Positions 2,397 through 17,359 of a stretch of DNA of 20,648 nt are shown in pieces. Below the pieces are notes generated by a model. It had not been told where the DNA came from, did no database searches, and worked only from the letters and a program-made list of their open reading frames with translations. Source of the stretch: a virus. Both the position numbers and the translations under genes were made by a program. The stretch's first letter is position 1; each line of letters begins with the position of its first letter. Where the stretch lies: positions 1-20,648 of the IMG/VR virus record IMGVR_UViG_3300043775_000700, one strand, 5' to 3'.

Positions 2397-2443
2397 AAAA
2401 AAAAAGCCCTCGTCTGGTACGTCCGAGGGCATTTTGATTGAGA
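2397..2443. terminator. Stem-loop terminator, probably bidirectional
   Basis: A perfect 7-bp stem GCCCTCG (2406-2412) / CGAGGGC (2424-2430) with an 11-nt loop. It is followed on + by ATTTTGATTGAGATTTT, and flanked on the left by nine A (2397-2405), which read as a U-tract on the opposite strand. It probably ends the NinB operon transcript and would also stop antisense transcription. Confidence 0.7.
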
Positions 2444-2461
2444 TTTTGATTTCTCAATTCC

Positions 2462-2493
2462 CACATTGCACTGGTACCAGACACTGCAATGTG
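2462..2493. repeat. Nested inverted repeat (possible operator)
   Basis: Arms CACATTGCA (2462-2470) and TGCAATGTG (2485-2493) are perfect 9-bp inverted repeats. The 14-nt spacer between them contains a second perfect palindrome, CTGGTACCAG (2471-2480). No U-tract follows, so it is not a terminator. It lies about 50 nt upstream of the -33 box of the MazG-like promoter, a plausible place for a dimeric repressor or activator site. Confidence 0.5.
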
Positions 2494-2543
2494 AGAACGC
2501 AACAAATGTATGGCGACCGGAACACGGAAGTCAAAAGAAATAA

Positions 2544-5339: not shown

Positions 5340-7388
5340 CTATCGAGTAACAAGTACGCTTGCCTCGTTGTTTGAAGGATTGCTATCAGGCAAACCGTTT
5401 ACCTCAGTGATACGAACTCTCCAAGTATTTGGAAGTGTACCTTGAGTTGACGTAGGCCATACAGTACCCATACCCACAGAACGTCCCGGCATGATGCGCT
5501 CTGGACGACTCCAGTTGCTTTGATACTGACCATCGAAACCAGACACTCCCTTGTAAGAAGTGATGACTGATGTTCCCTTGTTTGTAATGCGGTAAGACAC
5601 ACGAACTCGGCTGGCATCAAGCCACTCGTATCCGGTGATCTTAACTTCTATATCCAAGGTTTGATCCGGAGGAGTTGGAGTTGTCAGCGTGATTGAAGTA
5701 ACCGCGATGTTGTCGTTCTCGTTTGACTCATTGATTGCGTTTGCAGGATCAATAGTCAGGATGAACTGAGACAGACCGCTGAGGTTGTTTGGAACGGTAT
5801 AAGGGATCGTAGCAGTAACCGAAGTCTGACCCTTTGGAACGGTCACGGTTCCAGTGTAGAAGTTAAGCACCGCTCCTGCTGGATTCTTGAATGAAACCAC
5901 AACAGGGGCAAGCAAGTCAGCCTCGATAGCCTTGTCGAGCATTACAGAGTAAGATACGTTGGTAATAGATCCAGCTACAGCCGTAGCAGGAGAGCTAATC
6001 ACACCATATACATTCACCAGAGTCTGCGGAGGTGGAGGAGGAGTAGCGCCACCTGCAAGAGATACTGCGGTGTTAGCGTCGATAACTCCGAAGCCAAGCT
6101 CAGGAGACTTTCCGTTTGCATCGTAAGTGTAACCACCCACCTTGCGGCATGAGTTCTTGATGATGTCACGAACCTGCACCTCAGTAAGGTCAGGGTTCTT
6201 AACGAGGATTAAGCCGGCAGCGGCAGCCATTGCAGGAGATGAGGCAGAAGTTCCGCTGAAGCCCCTGTATGAGTCAGGTCCATAACCAACAGCACCTGTA
6301 CGATCCACAGTCCACAAAGAAACACCAGGGGCAGAGGCAAATAGCTTCGGTCCGTAGTTGCTGAATACTGCGCGGGTGTCGTTCTGTGCGCTTGCGCCTA
6401 CAGCCATTACAGATGGATAGGAGGCAGGGAGCTGAGTGAAGTCAGACAGACGGCCATTACCAGAAGATGCGAAGAGTGGAATACCCTTACCTCCACGGGC
6501 AGTTGTACGGGCAGTGTTCAAAGCGTTACTGAATATAGGGTATCCAGCACCGGTGCTACCCCAAGACATGGAAACAGCTACGCAATCTGGGTTAGCGATA
6601 ACCTTGTTCATTGCACGAGTAAGGATCGTGTCAGTGGTAAAGAAACCTCCACCAGAGTTACTGTTGTAACCGATGTGCAGGAACTGAACCTTCAAGTGGT
6701 TACCACCGATTGACTGACAGCCAACATTGTTTCCGGTATTAGCGCATATAACCCCTGAGCAAGGAGTTCCGTGGTTCTCAAAGTCCGATATAGGATTTAC
6801 ATCCGCAGCGTCAGTAACGCAGTTCCAAGATGTAGAACTAATCATACCCGCCAAGTCCTCGTGAGTGGTCTCGCAAGCAATGTCAAGTACGGCTACCTCC
6901 TTAACAACTCCGTCAGGCAATTGCGCCCAAGCCTCGGCACACTTCATCAATGGCAAGTGCCAGTGACCAGAGTAGATAGTCTCCGCGTGACCCTGCATAG
7001 GTACGATGTAGTCTGGCTCAACGCTAACGAATAGGCCAGTAGACATAGTGCTTGCGTAGAAGGAATCAAACTCTACAAAGTCAGGCACCTCAACGAAGAA
7101 AGTCTTTGTATCAACGTAAGAATCCTTAACCACGATCTTGTTTGCAGCGAAGTACTCGGCTGCTTTAGCGTGATCATGTGCGATCACAAGGGCAAGACCA
7201 GAGGTAAGACTATCGAGAGATTCCTCAACGCTGTTAGACTGGGATACCTTGGCAGGATCCGGAGTCACTGGCTGCTCGTCACGGAACACGATGATGCCAA
7301 ATGGCTCATGCACCGCAACCACGTTCGGTTTGGTTTTGTTCTTTTCAAAGGACGCCTTGTCCTTGAACTTAACTGATTTTAAACTCAT
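5340..7388 (-). CDS. Subtilisin-family (S8) serine protease with CARDB-like C-terminal domains
   Basis: 682-aa predicted serine protease. The catalytic triad is readable: Asp169 in VAVLDIACE, His206 in ENHGTPCSG, Ser381 in SGTSASSPAMAAA, with oxyanion-hole Asn311 in FASSGN. Residues 1 to about 150 look like an I9-type inhibitory prodomain. A proline linker (ATPPPPPQ, about 449-455) leads to two CARDB-like beta domains (about 457-570 and 577-682), each ending in an Asn-rich signature (NESNENDN; DSNPSNNEA). There is no N-terminal signal peptide: the protein opens with a basic, hydrophilic MSLKSVKFKDK. Last gene of the tail/lysis operon, with a TA-rich 18-nt leader lacking an SD. A virion-associated or lysate-released protease is plausible. 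The family is certain; the role is inferred. Confidence 0.9.
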   Translation of the reverse strand: MSLKSVKFKDKASFEKNKTKPNVVAVHEPFGIIVFRDEQPVTPDPAKVSQSNSVEESLDSLTSGLALVIAHDHAKAAEYFAANKIVVKDSYVDTKTFFVEVPDFVEFDSFYASTMSTGLFVSVEPDYIVPMQGHAETIYSGHWHLPLMKCAEAWAQLPDGVVKEVAVLDIACETTHEDLAGMISSTSWNCVTDAADVNPISDFENHGTPCSGVICANTGNNVGCQSIGGNHLKVQFLHIGYNSNSGGGFFTTDTILTRAMNKVIANPDCVAVSMSWGSTGAGYPIFSNALNTARTTARGGKGIPLFASSGNGRLSDFTQLPASYPSVMAVGASAQNDTRAVFSNYGPKLFASAPGVSLWTVDRTGAVGYGPDSYRGFSGTSASSPAMAAAAGLILVKNPDLTEVQVRDIIKNSCRKVGGYTYDANGKSPELGFGVIDANTAVSLAGGATPPPPPQTLVNVYGVISSPATAVAGSITNVSYSVMLDKAIEADLLAPVVVSFKNPAGAVLNFYTGTVTVPKGQTSVTATIPYTVPNNLSGLSQFILTIDPANAINESNENDNIAVTSITLTTPTPPDQTLDIEVKITGYEWLDASRVRVSYRITNKGTSVITSYKGVSGFDGQYQSNWSRPERIMPGRSVGMGTVWPTSTQGTLPNTWRVRITEVNGLPDSNPSNNEASVLVTR

Positions 7389-8274: not shown

Positions 8275-8282
8275 CAAATATA
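8275..8282 (-). promoter_or_regulatory. Bacteroidetes -7 box TATATTTG before the holin candidate
   Basis: The minus strand reads TATATTTG, then CAAAC, then ATG. No clear TTTG/TTG -33 box is found 19-21 nt upstream, so activity is uncertain. It overlaps the last base of the preceding gene's terminal region and would separate lysis from tail transcription. Confidence 0.4.
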
Positions 8283-14100: not shown

Positions 14101-16202
14101 TGAGGTTCTAGGCCGTTGTTAACCGTGTATGGATCACCTCCACCGCTAGCATTAAGAACGCCCAGCGCAGTCAAATCGAGGTTAGTGCCAAGAGTAATCT
14201 CCTGCATGATGCCGGTCCCTGCCGAGTCCCATCTTCCTACAAGTCTATTTTCATTTACACTTGTTGTTACTGTCCCCGTCGTTATAATCGGGTTTGGGGA
14301 TGTTGTAATAAGACCTGTTCCAGAAACCGAGGACACACTTCCTCCTCCGGTTGCCAACTTCTTCCATACCTTACCCGAGCCGTCTACTGCGAGGTTGTAG
14401 GTCAGCGAGTTGTCAATATTCGTTGTGCCATCGGTAAAAGTACCAGTACCATATTCGTTCAAAGTCAACTGACCCTTGCCCTCCAACAACAACTTGTCTT
14501 GCTGAGATCCGCCATCAAACATTCTAATTGAGAAGTTCGATGTCTCATCATTTTCTATTACACTAGTAGCCTCCGCGATCAACTTAACAGCCGGCCATAA
14601 ATACAAGTCTGGGCTTGGTGAAACTGATGTATTCCTGAACGTATAGTCGATCGCCATCCTAGCCCCAACCGAAGTGGTTCCAGTATTTCTTAAACTGAGA
14701 AAAGAATTGCGGTTTTCCCATATACCCGGATCGCCCGGATTAGGCAATGGACCATCTAACTCCAGGTTCAAAAGCGGCCTGAAGGTATCAGTGTTGCCAA
14801 AAATTTGAACAGATGGATTTGGTCTTGATCCACTAGCAAAGTCTTGGAACGTAGCGACACCCCCATTACCAAGGTTGGCTACCCCAAATGGGAAACGAGT
14901 GTCTTGGTCTGCGCTACCTCTAACGCTGAGTTGATACTCTGTAGCCCCGTCGGTAGTCTCAATCAAAGTATCTTCTATGAGTTGTCCGCCAAGGTGGAAC
15001 AGGAATGGATCAGGAGGAGCCTCTCCGGGAACTCCACCGAATGCGTGAAGTCCGTTCTCTACCGTGTATACAGGAAGAGTGGCGAGTTCGCCAAGACCAT
15101 TGATATATTCTAGATCTGTACCCGCTCCAACAACATCTATTTCCCCAGAAATAGTTATGGGTGAATTGGAAACGGTAAACGCAGAAGGCATTGTAAGCCC
15201 TACAGAAACGACTGTCCCCGTGCCGGCAGGAGTGTACTCTACGTGGCCAGAACCGTCGTAAGCTAGAACCCATCCAAGAGATGCCGCGCCGTAGTTTGGC
15301 GTTATGATGTCAATGAATGAAGTTCCACTAATGGTTACCGCTCCAGGATCTATTTGTATCCTTCCGACATTACCCCCGCCATCATCCGCATTATAAAGTT
15401 GGTAACTTTCTGAATCTATTGAATATCTACTTACATTATCCCATGCAAAATTAAACCCACCTCCATCAACCGTGTTGTTTTGAGTAAGAAGCGAGCTGAT
15501 ATTCAACGTGTCTTGCCAGTCTTGGACTAAAGATCCACCAACGCTCGTCACATCCAAACAAAGCTCTGTGCCTTCGGGGAATGTGCCGGGGCCATTTAAC
15601 AGCGTAGCATCAAATCGCGCATACACCGCAGGTCCACCGTCTGAGTAGTTAGATAGTTGATATACCCCGTATACGGTTGGATCGGTCTTGCTAAATACAA
15701 ACATCCAAGAACCGTCCTGGATAATTGGCCACAAACCACTAAAGTCTTGGTTATTGGCAGTGAAATAGTTTACCCGAATACTATTACTAGCCGAGTCGTA
15801 CAGAAAAGTGCCAAGGTCAGTTCCGTTACCAGCAGTGTATTGGATAGAACACTCCGGCTCTGTATTACCGCATTCACAACAGCCCTTGAAGATAGAAGTA
15901 ACGAGCAGGCGATAGATTTCAATAGTCCTTTCCTGAATAACATCAGGCGTATCTTGGAATGAAAGCGGTAAAAACACTATTCCGCCAACGGCTTCTATGG
16001 TGTAAACACTAAACGTAAATGAGTCTCCACCGACTTGAGAAATGGTTATGCTGTCAAAGGTGTAAGAGATGTATGCCGGACTCTGAGGCACGATCTGACT
16101 CATGGCCCTGATATAGGTTGTATCGTTTAAAAACGATACAATATCATTACCCTCTATTTGTATGCTGGTTATTACAGCATTGCGATTGTCGGTTGTAGCC
16201 AT
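11166..16202 (-). CDS. Giant modular tail fibre/tail protein (1678 aa)
   Basis: The largest gene of the window and the probable main host-contact tail protein. The N-terminal part (about 1-300) is non-repetitive and has a Cys-rich KGCCECGNTEPEC patch near residue 106. The central part is built of modules beginning YTVxNGL...FxLGGxLxxDTxxxG, starting at about residues 379, 692, 991 and 1171. Modules are separated by ATVGQVLTLxxATTGxVEFxDGGG linkers. A ten-glycine run (1319-1328) then joins a C-terminal head that contains ATNRGALSNTDWTRFDSF, a motif recurrent in Bacteroidetes phage fibres. No signal peptide, no visible peptidase or lyase motif. Stop and start of neighbours are adjacent; the ATG shares one base with the preceding stop (TAATG). 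Confidence 0.85.
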   Translation of the reverse strand: MATTDNRNAVITSIQIEGNDIVSFLNDTTYIRAMSQIVPQSPAYISYTFDSITISQVGGDSFTFSVYTIEAVGGIVFLPLSFQDTPDVIQERTIEIYRLLVTSIFKGCCECGNTEPECSIQYTAGNGTDLGTFLYDSASNSIRVNYFTANNQDFSGLWPIIQDGSWMFVFSKTDPTVYGVYQLSNYSDGGPAVYARFDATLLNGPGTFPEGTELCLDVTSVGGSLVQDWQDTLNISSLLTQNNTVDGGGFNFAWDNVSRYSIDSESYQLYNADDGGGNVGRIQIDPGAVTISGTSFIDIITPNYGAASLGWVLAYDGSGHVEYTPAGTGTVVSVGLTMPSAFTVSNSPITISGEIDVVGAGTDLEYINGLGELATLPVYTVENGLHAFGGVPGEAPPDPFLFHLGGQLIEDTLIETTDGATEYQLSVRGSADQDTRFPFGVANLGNGGVATFQDFASGSRPNPSVQIFGNTDTFRPLLNLELDGPLPNPGDPGIWENRNSFLSLRNTGTTSVGARMAIDYTFRNTSVSPSPDLYLWPAVKLIAEATSVIENDETSNFSIRMFDGGSQQDKLLLEGKGQLTLNEYGTGTFTDGTTNIDNSLTYNLAVDGSGKVWKKLATGGGSVSSVSGTGLITTSPNPIITTGTVTTSVNENRLVGRWDSAGTGIMQEITLGTNLDLTALGVLNASGGGDPYTVNNGLEPQTTPVANPNNFQLGGPLVKDTIVTGGITPFDYSMEFQDLSGFSANTNGKITLESESGNDKAEFGSNVIFASMLYTDSLNGASSTISVAGDSTTDEVKAIFSINNSFGTLGIYAGVNPSVFPYTSNMLTIRTPNVHNGTATVGQVLTLKSITGGDAGRVEFEDGGGGSNGLQDVITNDPILTANNIVTGASLDFKFDQFANFETNATNTIKAFTFSGINTASIEINTVGSPFIEMFSSQSGGSFTGITMKDTELLIKTPNVTGGAATVGQVLTLQDAATGRVEFQTAGGGTYTVNNGLEPQTTPVANPNNFQLGGPLVQNTTVTGASNTYDLTFDEMSDFTVNSKTKITLFAEDPSDPSVTSTVYSAFGSAYIEHVDSSGTGQVISQAGEVLMSYSDGVDLNVTASITGSSASMNYVDASVSFPGHQVIVDATGIKTVTPNVKASSATVGQVLTLQNATTGEVEFQDGGGTYTVNNGLSPDPSDPDIFQLGGPLIADTSISGDGNTYSLTFDDMDVLSGSADFKIAFAVNDGTTTSNFALQPNIASIGCAVNGSGNSSFAEFTDTQSRIGYLTPTQTVQFGADATGLYVLTPDVAAATATVGQVLTLINATTGESEWADGGGGGGGGGGRSYYLNGSVVQPGTFGGITDMRQMSPVPVIGVGTDFTISSNGYIKSFITDAGDPNKAVIPAGNWNFELWFSASSGGGSPNFYVELYKYDTVALTLTLISSSSTNPEGITNGTAIDLYVTALSVPQTTLALTDRLAVRVFVDNGGGGRTITLHTQGPHLSQIITDFPSGIVSLNGLTAFAQNLAVGTAGTDFDISSSVATHTFNLPTASATNRGALSNTDWTRFDSFKTQSIGITVDGSGGTITAGQKGYIRIPYACTITSWSILTGNAGFGATVTFDIWRANNAIPTVANTIVGGGTKPFLTNNTAQITSAAPTGWTFVTLAANDILGFNVESGAAVFSWVNLQLTVTRT
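12219..12248 (-). repeat. Poly-glycine (GGN)10 tract
   Basis: Ten consecutive Gly codons, mostly GGC with a few GGA and GGT, encode residues 1319-1328 of the giant tail protein. They mark the hinge between the repeat modules and the C-terminal head. Triplet slippage here would change hinge length without a frameshift. Confidence 0.85.
13170..13232. repeat. 63-bp exact direct repeat, copy A
   Basis: Identical base for base to 14067-14129 as read by eye. It encodes residues 991-1011 (YTVNNGLEPQTTPVANPNNF plus one residue) of the giant tail protein. The two copies are 897 bp (299 codons) apart and in the same frame. Confidence 0.9.
14067..14129. repeat. 63-bp exact direct repeat, copy B
   Basis: The partner of 13170-13232, encoding residues 692-712 of the giant tail protein. 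Sequence on both sides diverges, so only this stretch has been kept identical, which suggests recent duplication or gene conversion between modules. Confidence 0.9.
16118..16141. repeat. Near-perfect palindrome inside the start of the giant tail gene
   Basis: Arms TTGTATCGTTT (16118-16128) and AAACGATACAA (16131-16141) are perfect 11-bp inverted repeats around a 2-nt centre. They lie about 60-85 nt inside the coding sequence, spanning the IVSFLNDTT codons. No U-tract follows on the coding strand. It could be an operator, an mRNA hairpin limiting ribosome entry or elongation, or an RNase processing site. Confidence 0.55.
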
Positions 16203-16849
16203 TATTTACATTCTTCTTCTGTCGCGAAGGTACAAAATTCGTCGAGACTTTTGTATATTTTCGCGTACTTAGAAGAAGGGAACTTATCGCGCCACTCCAT
16301 CTTGACCCGCGCCCACTCTGGACCGGTTCGTACAGGCAGCGCCCGCTTTTCTTCCCGTGCGCCTGAAAAGATGAAATCGATCACAGACTTCTTGCTAGGA
16401 CGCCCGCCGTTCTTACGTTTGTTCTCTATCATCACTTTTACCTCGTCGAGCTTTTCGTGGTTTGCATCTTCGAGCAGTTCCACCAGTTGGCGCAAAGAAA
16501 CGCAACTGTCGAGCTTGCCACGGGTTATTGTAACCTTTTCGCGAACGATTGGATCGCTGTCAAGGAATTTGATATCAAACCCAAGTTCGCGCATAGCGAA
16601 GGTAAGGGAGAGAATGTCTGCCTTGATTTGCGCTGTTCCCCGGTTGGGAACCGAGGGGTAAATTGCGGAATGCGAGTCTGTGCGTTTGTTGTCATCTATC
16701 CATATTGATGTGGTACTAATTGCATAATCCCCAAGGCCGCGCTCAACCATAATGCTTGCGCTTGGGAAGTTATACATTAGCTGGTTAATTAGTACTCTAT
16801 ATTCACCTAATTCATGCGGCGTGGGATCAGCCAGTTTCAATTCAATCAT
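16202..16849 (-). CDS. Hypothetical protein, first gene of the tail operon (215 aa)
   Basis: I do not recognise this protein. The N-terminal half looks like a mixed alpha/beta domain (ELGEYRVLINQLMYNFPSAS; IWIDDNKRTDSHSAIYPS; GTAQIKADILSLTFAMRELG). A charged linker follows with a GGRPSKKSVIDFIFSGA segment and a basic, Trp-containing C-terminus (PVRTGPEWARVKMEWRDKF). No signal peptide or membrane helix. It directly follows the promoter/terminator region at 16850-17018 and overlaps the giant tail gene start by one base (TAATG), so it is co-transcribed with the tail genes. It could be a tail-completion or regulatory protein; the basic GGRPSKK patch would fit nucleic-acid binding, but that is a guess. 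Confidence 0.65.
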   Translation of the reverse strand: MIELKLADPTPHELGEYRVLINQLMYNFPSASIMVERGLGDYAISTTSIWIDDNKRTDSHSAIYPSVPNRGTAQIKADILSLTFAMRELGFDIKFLDSDPIVREKVTITRGKLDSCVSLRQLVELLEDANHEKLDEVKVMIENKRKNGGRPSKKSVIDFIFSGAREEKRALPVRTGPEWARVKMEWRDKFPSSKYAKIYKSLDEFCTFATEEECK

Positions 16850-16866: not shown

Positions 16867-16874
16867 CAAATATA
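16867..16874 (-). promoter_or_regulatory. -7 box TATATTTG proximal to the tail operon
   Basis: The minus strand reads TATATTTG 17 nt before the ATG at 16849, giving a short predicted 5' UTR. The only TTG upstream (in the terminator stem) is about 15 nt away rather than 19-21, so the -33 match is poor. It comes directly after the T-tract of a terminator, consistent with restarting transcription there. Confidence 0.45.
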
Positions 16875-16906
16875 CTAAAAAAGAAACCCCAAGCCGTTGC
16901 CTGGGG
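16875..16906 (-). terminator. Intrinsic terminator/attenuator ahead of the tail operon
   Basis: On the - strand the stem CCCCA (16906-16902) / TGGGG (16891-16887) is extended inside by a GC/GC pair and followed by TTTCTTTTTT (16886-16877). It lies about 40-70 nt downstream of the start predicted for the distal promoter. It either makes a short RNA or attenuates the tail operon, and it would also stop read-through from the 71-aa gene. Confidence 0.7.
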
Positions 16907-16947
16907 ACCCTATACACTAACACTAAATACTAGTTTTTACCAAAACC
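16876..16947 (-). ncRNA. Candidate short leader RNA/sRNA on the - strand
   Basis: Runs from the predicted start of the strong distal - promoter to the U-tract of the hairpin, about 70 nt. I see no reading frame with a usual start codon and a good ribosome site inside. It may be a stable small RNA or the attenuated 5' leader of the tail operon; sequence alone cannot separate these. Confidence 0.35.
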
Positions 16948-16951
16948 GGTG

Positions 16952-16982
16952 CAAATATATAAGCAGGATTCTTTTGTGCAAA
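16952..16982 (-). promoter_or_regulatory. Strong Bacteroidetes-type promoter, leftward (distal tail-operon promoter)
   Basis: On the - strand: TTTG (16982-16979), 19-nt spacer, TATATTTG (16959-16952). Both boxes and the spacing fit the sigma-ABfr consensus. It points toward the tail operon but is followed by a terminator before the first gene. Confidence 0.75.
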
Positions 16983-16987
16983 ATTAA

Positions 16988-17018
16988 TTTGTATTAATTA
17001 AGATTTGTTGTATATTTG
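16988..17018 (+). promoter_or_regulatory. Strong Bacteroidetes-type promoter, rightward
   Basis: On the + strand: TTTG (16988-16991), 19-nt spacer, TATATTTG (17011-17018). It mirrors the leftward promoter exactly, with the two TTTG boxes back to back 5 nt apart. No + strand gene lies ahead of it in the window; a hairpin with U-tract follows about 45 nt downstream of the predicted start. Confidence 0.75.
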
Positions 17019-17023
17019 CCTCG

Positions 17024-17097
17024 CAAGTTCGCGCACATCAAGTGCAGTCGGGAGACGAGAACTTTGAGGGCGGCCTGATCACCGCCCTCTGTGTTTT
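17024..17097 (+). ncRNA. Candidate small RNA, about 74 nt
   Basis: Bounded by a full-consensus promoter (start predicted a few bases after 17018) and a hairpin with U-tract ending at 17097. It contains no ATG. A second small stem GCAC (17033-17036) / GTGC (17042-17045) lies in the 5' half. All annotated neighbours are on the other strand, so it is not an mRNA leader. It could act in trans or as antisense to read-through RNA from the 71-aa gene. No known RNA family recognised. Confidence 0.45.
17066..17097 (+). terminator. Intrinsic terminator of the rightward transcript
   Basis: Perfect 8-bp stem GAGGGCGG (17066-17073) / CCGCCCTC (17082-17089) with an 8-nt loop, followed on + by TGTGTTTT. 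The - strand side has no U-tract (AAAGTTC follows), so it serves the + transcript. The tract is weak (four uninterrupted T), so termination may be partial. Confidence 0.55.
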
Positions 17098-17127
17098 CAG
17101 AAAGTATACAATTACAGTAGGGAGAAA

Positions 17128-17343
17128 TTACTTGGTAGAGCGCTTGGCCTTGGCCTTTCTGTAGTGGCCGTAAAGGATTACAACCGAAACACAGCAGGCC
17201 AACAATAGAGACGAGATTCGGAAGGCCCATTCAGCCTGTTCCTGCCATGAAACGACAGCGGCAAATGTTGTTAATAAAACTGAACCAATTCCATCTGCGT
17301 ATCCGTCCCCTGTCATCTCTGTGTGATTTATATCATGGTGCAT
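17128..17343 (-). CDS. Small membrane protein, possible holin (71 aa)
   Basis: 71-aa protein with a polar N-terminus, a moderately hydrophobic segment at about 19-33 (IGSVLLTTFAAVVSW), a strong helix at about 42-60 (RISSLLLACCVSVVILYGH) and a very basic C-terminal tail (YRKAKAKRSTK). Two short TM helices with a charged tail fit a class II holin. A small virion or injection-associated membrane protein is equally possible beside the polyvalent protein. The start at 17343 is supported by a TATATTTG box ending 8 nt upstream. It competes with another minus-strand frame (16994-17230) that has no such support. Confidence 0.6.
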   Translation of the reverse strand: MHHDINHTEMTGDGYADGIGSVLLTTFAAVVSWQEQAEWAFRISSLLLACCVSVVILYGHYRKAKAKRSTK

Positions 17344-17351
17344 TGCGCTTA

Positions 17352-17359
17352 CAAATATA
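17352..17359 (-). promoter_or_regulatory. -7 box TATATTTG before the 71-aa membrane protein
   Basis: The minus strand reads TATATTTG just after the stop codon of the 986-aa gene and 8 nt before the ATG at 17343. A TTTG/TTG -33 box is not evident 19-21 nt upstream (the region is AAAG-rich coding sequence). If active, it makes a leaderless or near-leaderless message. Confidence 0.4.

Follow-up and report, generated by a model that had tools for sequence, protein, structure and literature searches.

The DNA analysed here (the window) is a fragment of 20,648 nucleotides (20.6 kb) from an unclassified phage group whose longest members are ~70 kb. An annotated relative (G001) has genes for portal, terminase and primase, the last with a BT4734-like domain, and these genes, together with the promoters described below, point to a Bacteroidota host. 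At 16952-17018 two promoters stand back to back, and the preliminary description of this DNA had correctly placed the pair between two same-strand mRNA units. The features of the locus are as follows.

16202-16849, minus strand: gene for a 215-aa protein, the downstream neighbour, without a Pfam or PHROG match
16867-16874, minus strand: -7 box TATATTTG for the 215-aa gene, invariant at 7/8 positions, right after the minus terminator
16880-16947, minus strand: predicted short transcript of ~68 nt, predicted +1 at 16947, 5' end GGUUUUGGU
16887-16906, minus strand: predicted intrinsic terminator of that transcript (CCCCAGGC AACG GCTTGGGG, TTTCTTTTTT), rank 2 in the window
16952-16959, minus strand: -7 box TATATTTG of the minus promoter, TAnnTTYG in 20/20 close-group phages
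16979-16982, minus strand: -33 box TTTG of the minus promoter, in 20/20 close-group phages
16988-16991, plus strand: -33 box TTTG of the plus promoter, an exact match
17011-17018, plus strand: -7 box TATATTTG of the plus promoter, 0% pairwise difference in 18 phages
17023-17097, plus strand: predicted small RNA gene of ~74 nt (the plus RNA), from a predicted +1 at 17023 through a U tract to ~17097
17066-17089, plus strand: predicted intrinsic terminator of the plus RNA (GAGGGCGGCCTGATCACCGCCCTC, tail TGTGTTTT), rank 1 in the window
17128-17343, minus strand: gene for a 71-aa protein, the upstream neighbour, with a hydrophobic stretch and a conserved VVSWQEQ; a TATATTTG box precedes the gene at 17352

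The 71-aa product is probably a membrane protein, and both neighbouring proteins have relatives only within this phage group. Related loci were collected through the 215-aa gene: 24, then four more at 52% identity. The distant relatives used below (L075 and L078) share 50-52% protein identity.

The pair reads exactly CAAATATA-N19-CAAA-N5-TTTG-N19-TATATTTG, an arrangement that occurs once within the window. The window has three copies of TTTG-N19..21-TAnnTTTG where 0.31 would be expected; 1 of 100 shuffles reached that count, and the pair accounts for two of these three full-consensus promoters. When the intergenic region was shuffled 20,000 times under an order-1 Markov model, both promoters never appeared together. 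The box TATATTTG has five copies against 0.76 expected, and the three outside the pair lie immediately upstream of genes. Both strands match the sigma-ABfr promoter (TAnnTTTG at -7, TTTG near -33) exactly, and relatives keep the match. Each of the 18 close-group phages with a retained plus RNA has TTTG-N19-TATATTTG as its plus promoter, and the minus promoter is TTTG-N19/20-TAnnTTYG in 20 of 20, with 18% pairwise difference in its -7 box compared with 53% in its spacer. The motif pattern reported earlier is thus real and not a product of chance, and its two halves are, as proposed, good predicted promoters for a Bacteroidota primary sigma factor.

TAnnTTTG spans -12 to -5 (PMC9723704), which predicts transcription starts at 17023 (plus) and 16947 (minus). 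Directly downstream of the two promoters lie the two top-ranked intrinsic terminators of the window (17066-17089 on the plus strand, 16906-16887 on the minus), so that both sides carry the intrinsic terminator expected of a high-confidence intergenic sRNA. With promoters and terminators so placed, each promoter is predicted to drive a short terminated transcript in which no open reading frame is evident. The plus RNA contains no ATG.

Conservation follows these predicted limits. The four bases after the plus -7 box (17019-17022) differ by 50% among 18 phages, and from 17023 onwards the plus RNA differs pairwise by 0.5-2.7% outside the loop of its second helix, P2, where the difference is 55%. 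Near-invariance therefore starts at the predicted +1, and it stops in the U tract. For comparison, four-fold codon sites in the neighbouring 215-aa gene differ by 36%. When a 70-kb relative was compared with six other phages, the best window over the plus RNA was the most conserved of 6,998 60-mers, coding sequence included. A covariance-model search found one copy per genome, at the same locus. We consider that 17023-17097 is very probably a real small RNA gene.

The RNAalifold consensus orders the plus RNA as P1, P2, P3 and terminator, with these core helices (core 17025-17064).

17025-17030 with 17059-17064, plus strand: P1
17033-17036 with 17042-17045, plus strand: P2, with a variable loop
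17047-17049 with 17054-17056, plus strand: P3, with a GGGA loop at 17050-17053

Within the close group covariation is weak (57 of 500 shuffles score as high) because the RNA is nearly invariant. P2 shows one double change and two U-G cells, and the U-G pairs point to RNA, as they would be A-C on the opposite strand. The distant relatives give stronger structural evidence than this close-group covariation. L075 and L078 were aligned by hand at the same locus on the basis of synteny and the promoter-hairpin-terminator layout; the covariance model found L075 at E 0.18-0.3 only and did not detect L078. P1 is GGUU/AACC in L075, where P3 is GCC/GGC, and AGUU/AACU in L078, so that across the two phages P1 and P3 show double changes that are compensatory, and GGGA is kept in both. 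The terminator, near-invariant among close relatives, is replaced by an unrelated hairpin in L075 and by a third in L078. In the window the single-sequence minimum energy fold prefers a GAGAAC/U-tract pairing over P1, and in L075 the fold with P1 lies 1.3 kcal/mol above the best fold. The plus RNA is predicted to be a new structured RNA.

A weak direct repeat (CAGTAGGGAGA) of the RNA's CAGTCGGGAGA core lies at 17105-17121 and has variant forms in most relatives; the GGGA-motif variant repeat, ~65 bp downstream of the core, is present in nine genomes and missing from G008/L078. With the repeat, the mRNA of the 71-aa gene would carry a UCUCCC-like motif at its 3' end, which is suggestive.

No Rfam 15 family scored above its gathering threshold in the window, and the best sub-threshold matches in the window, L075 and L078 were far below gathering. 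MicX, found with relaxed thresholds, scored 17-22 bits against a gathering threshold of 75, a match to generic hairpins. Scans of IMG/VR with the exact core and with degenerate GTTT.. and GTTC.. forms recovered the RNA from this phage group alone; the remaining core matches look coding, by ORF membership computed for one scan only. One genome, L041, matched the exact core and lacked the rest of the plus RNA, and it was rejected. A genome collection contained neither the exact core nor a relative of the 215-aa protein. Among GenBank phages the intergenic DNA and the 215-aa protein had no match and a 986-aa protein had one remote match, and plasmids gave just short AT-rich chance matches. The locus was earlier singled out as a candidate undescribed unit, and a non-coding unit without an Rfam match is what we find.

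Other loci in these phages show related features. At 2436-2500 (plus strand), upstream of a 148-aa gene at 2510, are tandem hairpins, TTGAGATTTTGATTTCTCAA and CACATTGCA..TGCAATGTG, followed by AGAACGCAACAAATGTA. They are conserved in G001, G007, G010 and G017, with a compensatory change of TTGCA/TGCAA to TTACA/TGTAA, and beside them lies the window's third consensus promoter (2503-2535, minus strand). The hairpins probably form a structured 5' leader. A second small-RNA-like gene occurs outside the window, at ~26,340-26,450 of the G001 contig (L092) and ~56,235-56,345 of G002 (L114). It has a TATGTTTG box, ~110 nt, a TAAGAGCAAC/GTTGCTCTTA pairing and a strong terminator; it is among the most conserved non-coding blocks and has no Rfam match in G001. 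At 5340-7388 (minus strand) a subtilase gene (Pfam Peptidase_S8 with CARDB) adjoins the endolysin gene, a position from which it is absent in G001. The TATATTTG box at 8275-8282 (minus strand) ends ~6 bp before the start codon of a 132-aa gene, which suggests that the mRNA of this gene is nearly leaderless.

The preliminary description went further, and proposed that the pair is a mirror-symmetric unit, asking whether its boxes and N19/N5/N19 spacing are conserved in related phages. The plus promoter is conserved with its N19. The central N5, the minus N19 and the minus box drift. Exact mirror symmetry (N19, identical TATATTTG, N5) is confined to the window, L002 and L004; in other relatives the -33 gap is N4 or N5, the minus spacer is mostly N20 and the minus box is TAnnTTYG, usually TAnnTTCG. 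Moreover, one box can be lost without compensation. In L008 and L011, which form one clade, the plus -7 box and the plus RNA are deleted together and the minus promoter is kept; in the distant phage L078 the minus unit is not recognisable and the plus RNA is kept. Because the halves are lost separately, a joint obligate unit is refuted and two separate promoters are not. The joint conservation of symmetry and of both halves that would mark a symmetric bidirectional promoter unit is not seen. As far as comparison of these genomes can tell, the locus is two adjacent small-RNA genes, each with its own terminator, and not one obligate symmetric switch. The deletion clade also shows that the plus RNA is not essential.

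The minus unit is conserved at its ends. In most relatives a conserved GGTTTTGGTAAT starts 5 nt past the minus -7 box, and most minus transcripts are predicted to start with GGUUUUGGU. The rest of the transcript body is not conserved (49% difference). Covariation in the terminator stem is strong, with 14 cells changed on both sides and a score of 0.444 compared with 0.211 for shuffles (0/500). A seed search with the conserved 5' end found no recurring complementary site elsewhere. The minus transcript would end immediately short of the promoter that serves the 215-aa gene, and is most likely a leader and insulator for that gene, not a second effector.

These observations lead us to an explanation of the whole locus to which we assign a probability of about 0.62. 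A host primary sigma factor of the Bacteroidota type would transcribe two small non-coding RNA genes divergently from back-to-back promoters. The plus gene would yield a structured RNA of ~74 nt that ends at its own terminator and most likely acts in trans; with its GGGA-loop hairpin and junction it would bind a host or phage protein or pair with a host RNA. The minus gene would supply the leader and insulator. Comparison among relatives supports the promoters, the transcript ends, the terminators and the fold; we infer expression, action in trans, the partner and the exclusion of one polymerase by another. Action in trans is suggested because the sequence of the plus RNA, and not just its shape, is fixed while its surroundings drift. 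In a seed search the complement of the plus core recurred across these phage genomes only opposite its own locus, which makes a host RNA, or else a protein, the probable partner; duplex-energy target prediction over the start regions of nine genomes, with accessibility ignored, gave no convincing gene. The plus RNA probably has an important job during infection, in which it would be helpful but dispensable. It is a speculative and rather unlikely extension that it founds a new phage RNA family whose GGGA hairpin binds a host machine or defence protein, as a protein-targeting RNA of Bacteroidota phages.

Could the plus RNA instead act in cis? It is encoded opposite the late operon, its size would suit such a role, as would a promoter and terminator of its own, and the sole recurrent phage complement of its core is its own opposite strand. 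It might act against the late transcript that crosses the gap beyond the 71-aa gene, which would be cleaved or terminated, in the manner of OOP, a phage antisense RNA that stimulates the degradation of cII mRNA by RNase III (PMC12197685). We think this unlikely. Complementarity to the opposite strand holds for any sequence and leaves the near-invariance in 18 phages unexplained: a constant sequence is not required of a cis-antisense RNA, yet the plus RNA has one. Nor does it overlap a coding sequence at the 3' end, as an OOP-type RNA would: the 71-aa gene ends at 17128 and the RNA ends near 17097. The same invariance runs through the plus terminator stem and loop, beyond the need of a plain terminator and in contrast to the minus terminator, which drifts with compensation. 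This could reflect an element of the DNA itself (a site of replication, packaging or recombination) at which the promoters are incidental. That reading is highly improbable, however, given that the conservation boundaries coincide with the predicted transcript ends, that U-G pairs and compensatory changes are features of RNA, that the plus -7 box is 100% conserved and that L075 and L078 have swapped the terminator for unrelated hairpins. The extremes of cumulative GC skew also fall elsewhere, so the locus is not marked as an origin.

The remaining alternatives shift the emphasis from the plus RNA to the promoters or to the minus transcript. In the switch of the preliminary description, the pair is one unit whose direction is chosen by polymerase or by a central regulator. 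Wherever a close relative keeps both -33 boxes, 4-5 bp separate them, a gap at which two polymerases would be expected to exclude each other, and the central palindrome TGCAAAATAATTTTGCA is conserved. A regulator may possibly bind between the promoters, but the palindrome includes both -33 boxes and so is not independent evidence for one. Moreover, basal transcription at five E. coli bidirectional promoters was so low that competition was negligible (PMC12825309). With the symmetry not conserved and each side found alone, we regard such a switch as very unlikely. We are equally sceptical of an attenuator in which the minus promoter and terminator govern read-through into the 215-aa gene and the plus RNA is secondary. 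The minus terminator does covary and precede that gene, and L075 has no TATATTTG between the two, so that read-through may be needed there. However, the transcript body expected to form an anti-terminator is not conserved, and close relatives have a second promoter box after the terminator.

What emerges is an RNA gene with clear limits, predicted solely from evolutionary comparison. Its core makes up the most conserved stretch of a 70-kb relative, and it belongs to no known family. If the RNA is expressed and trans-acting, it is a concrete entry to RNA-based host control by Bacteroidota phages. A review of phage small RNAs does not mention Bacteroides (PMC12197685).

Among the nearest parallels are intergenic sRNAs of Bacteroides and Flavobacterium, such as GibS and Rfp18. 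As predicted here, each is a conserved non-coding unit of its own with promoters of the phylum and an intrinsic terminator (PMC7366714, PMC9723704). Unlike them, the plus RNA is phage-encoded, has no Rfam match and is known from sequence prediction alone.

The OOP RNA of phage lambda is 77 nt long and is transcribed against its surrounding operon, as the plus RNA would be. Like the predicted plus RNA, it is a small phage RNA with its own promoter (PMC12197685). By contrast with OOP, the plus RNA has no coding overlap, a conserved junction-like fold and an invariant sequence. The E. coli bidirectional promoters also start transcription in both directions from one short DNA segment, and are pseudo-symmetrical, with polymerase engaged in either orientation (PMC12825309). 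Here, by contrast, the two promoters are separate, with their -33 boxes side by side at the centre, and would give two RNAs, each with its terminator.
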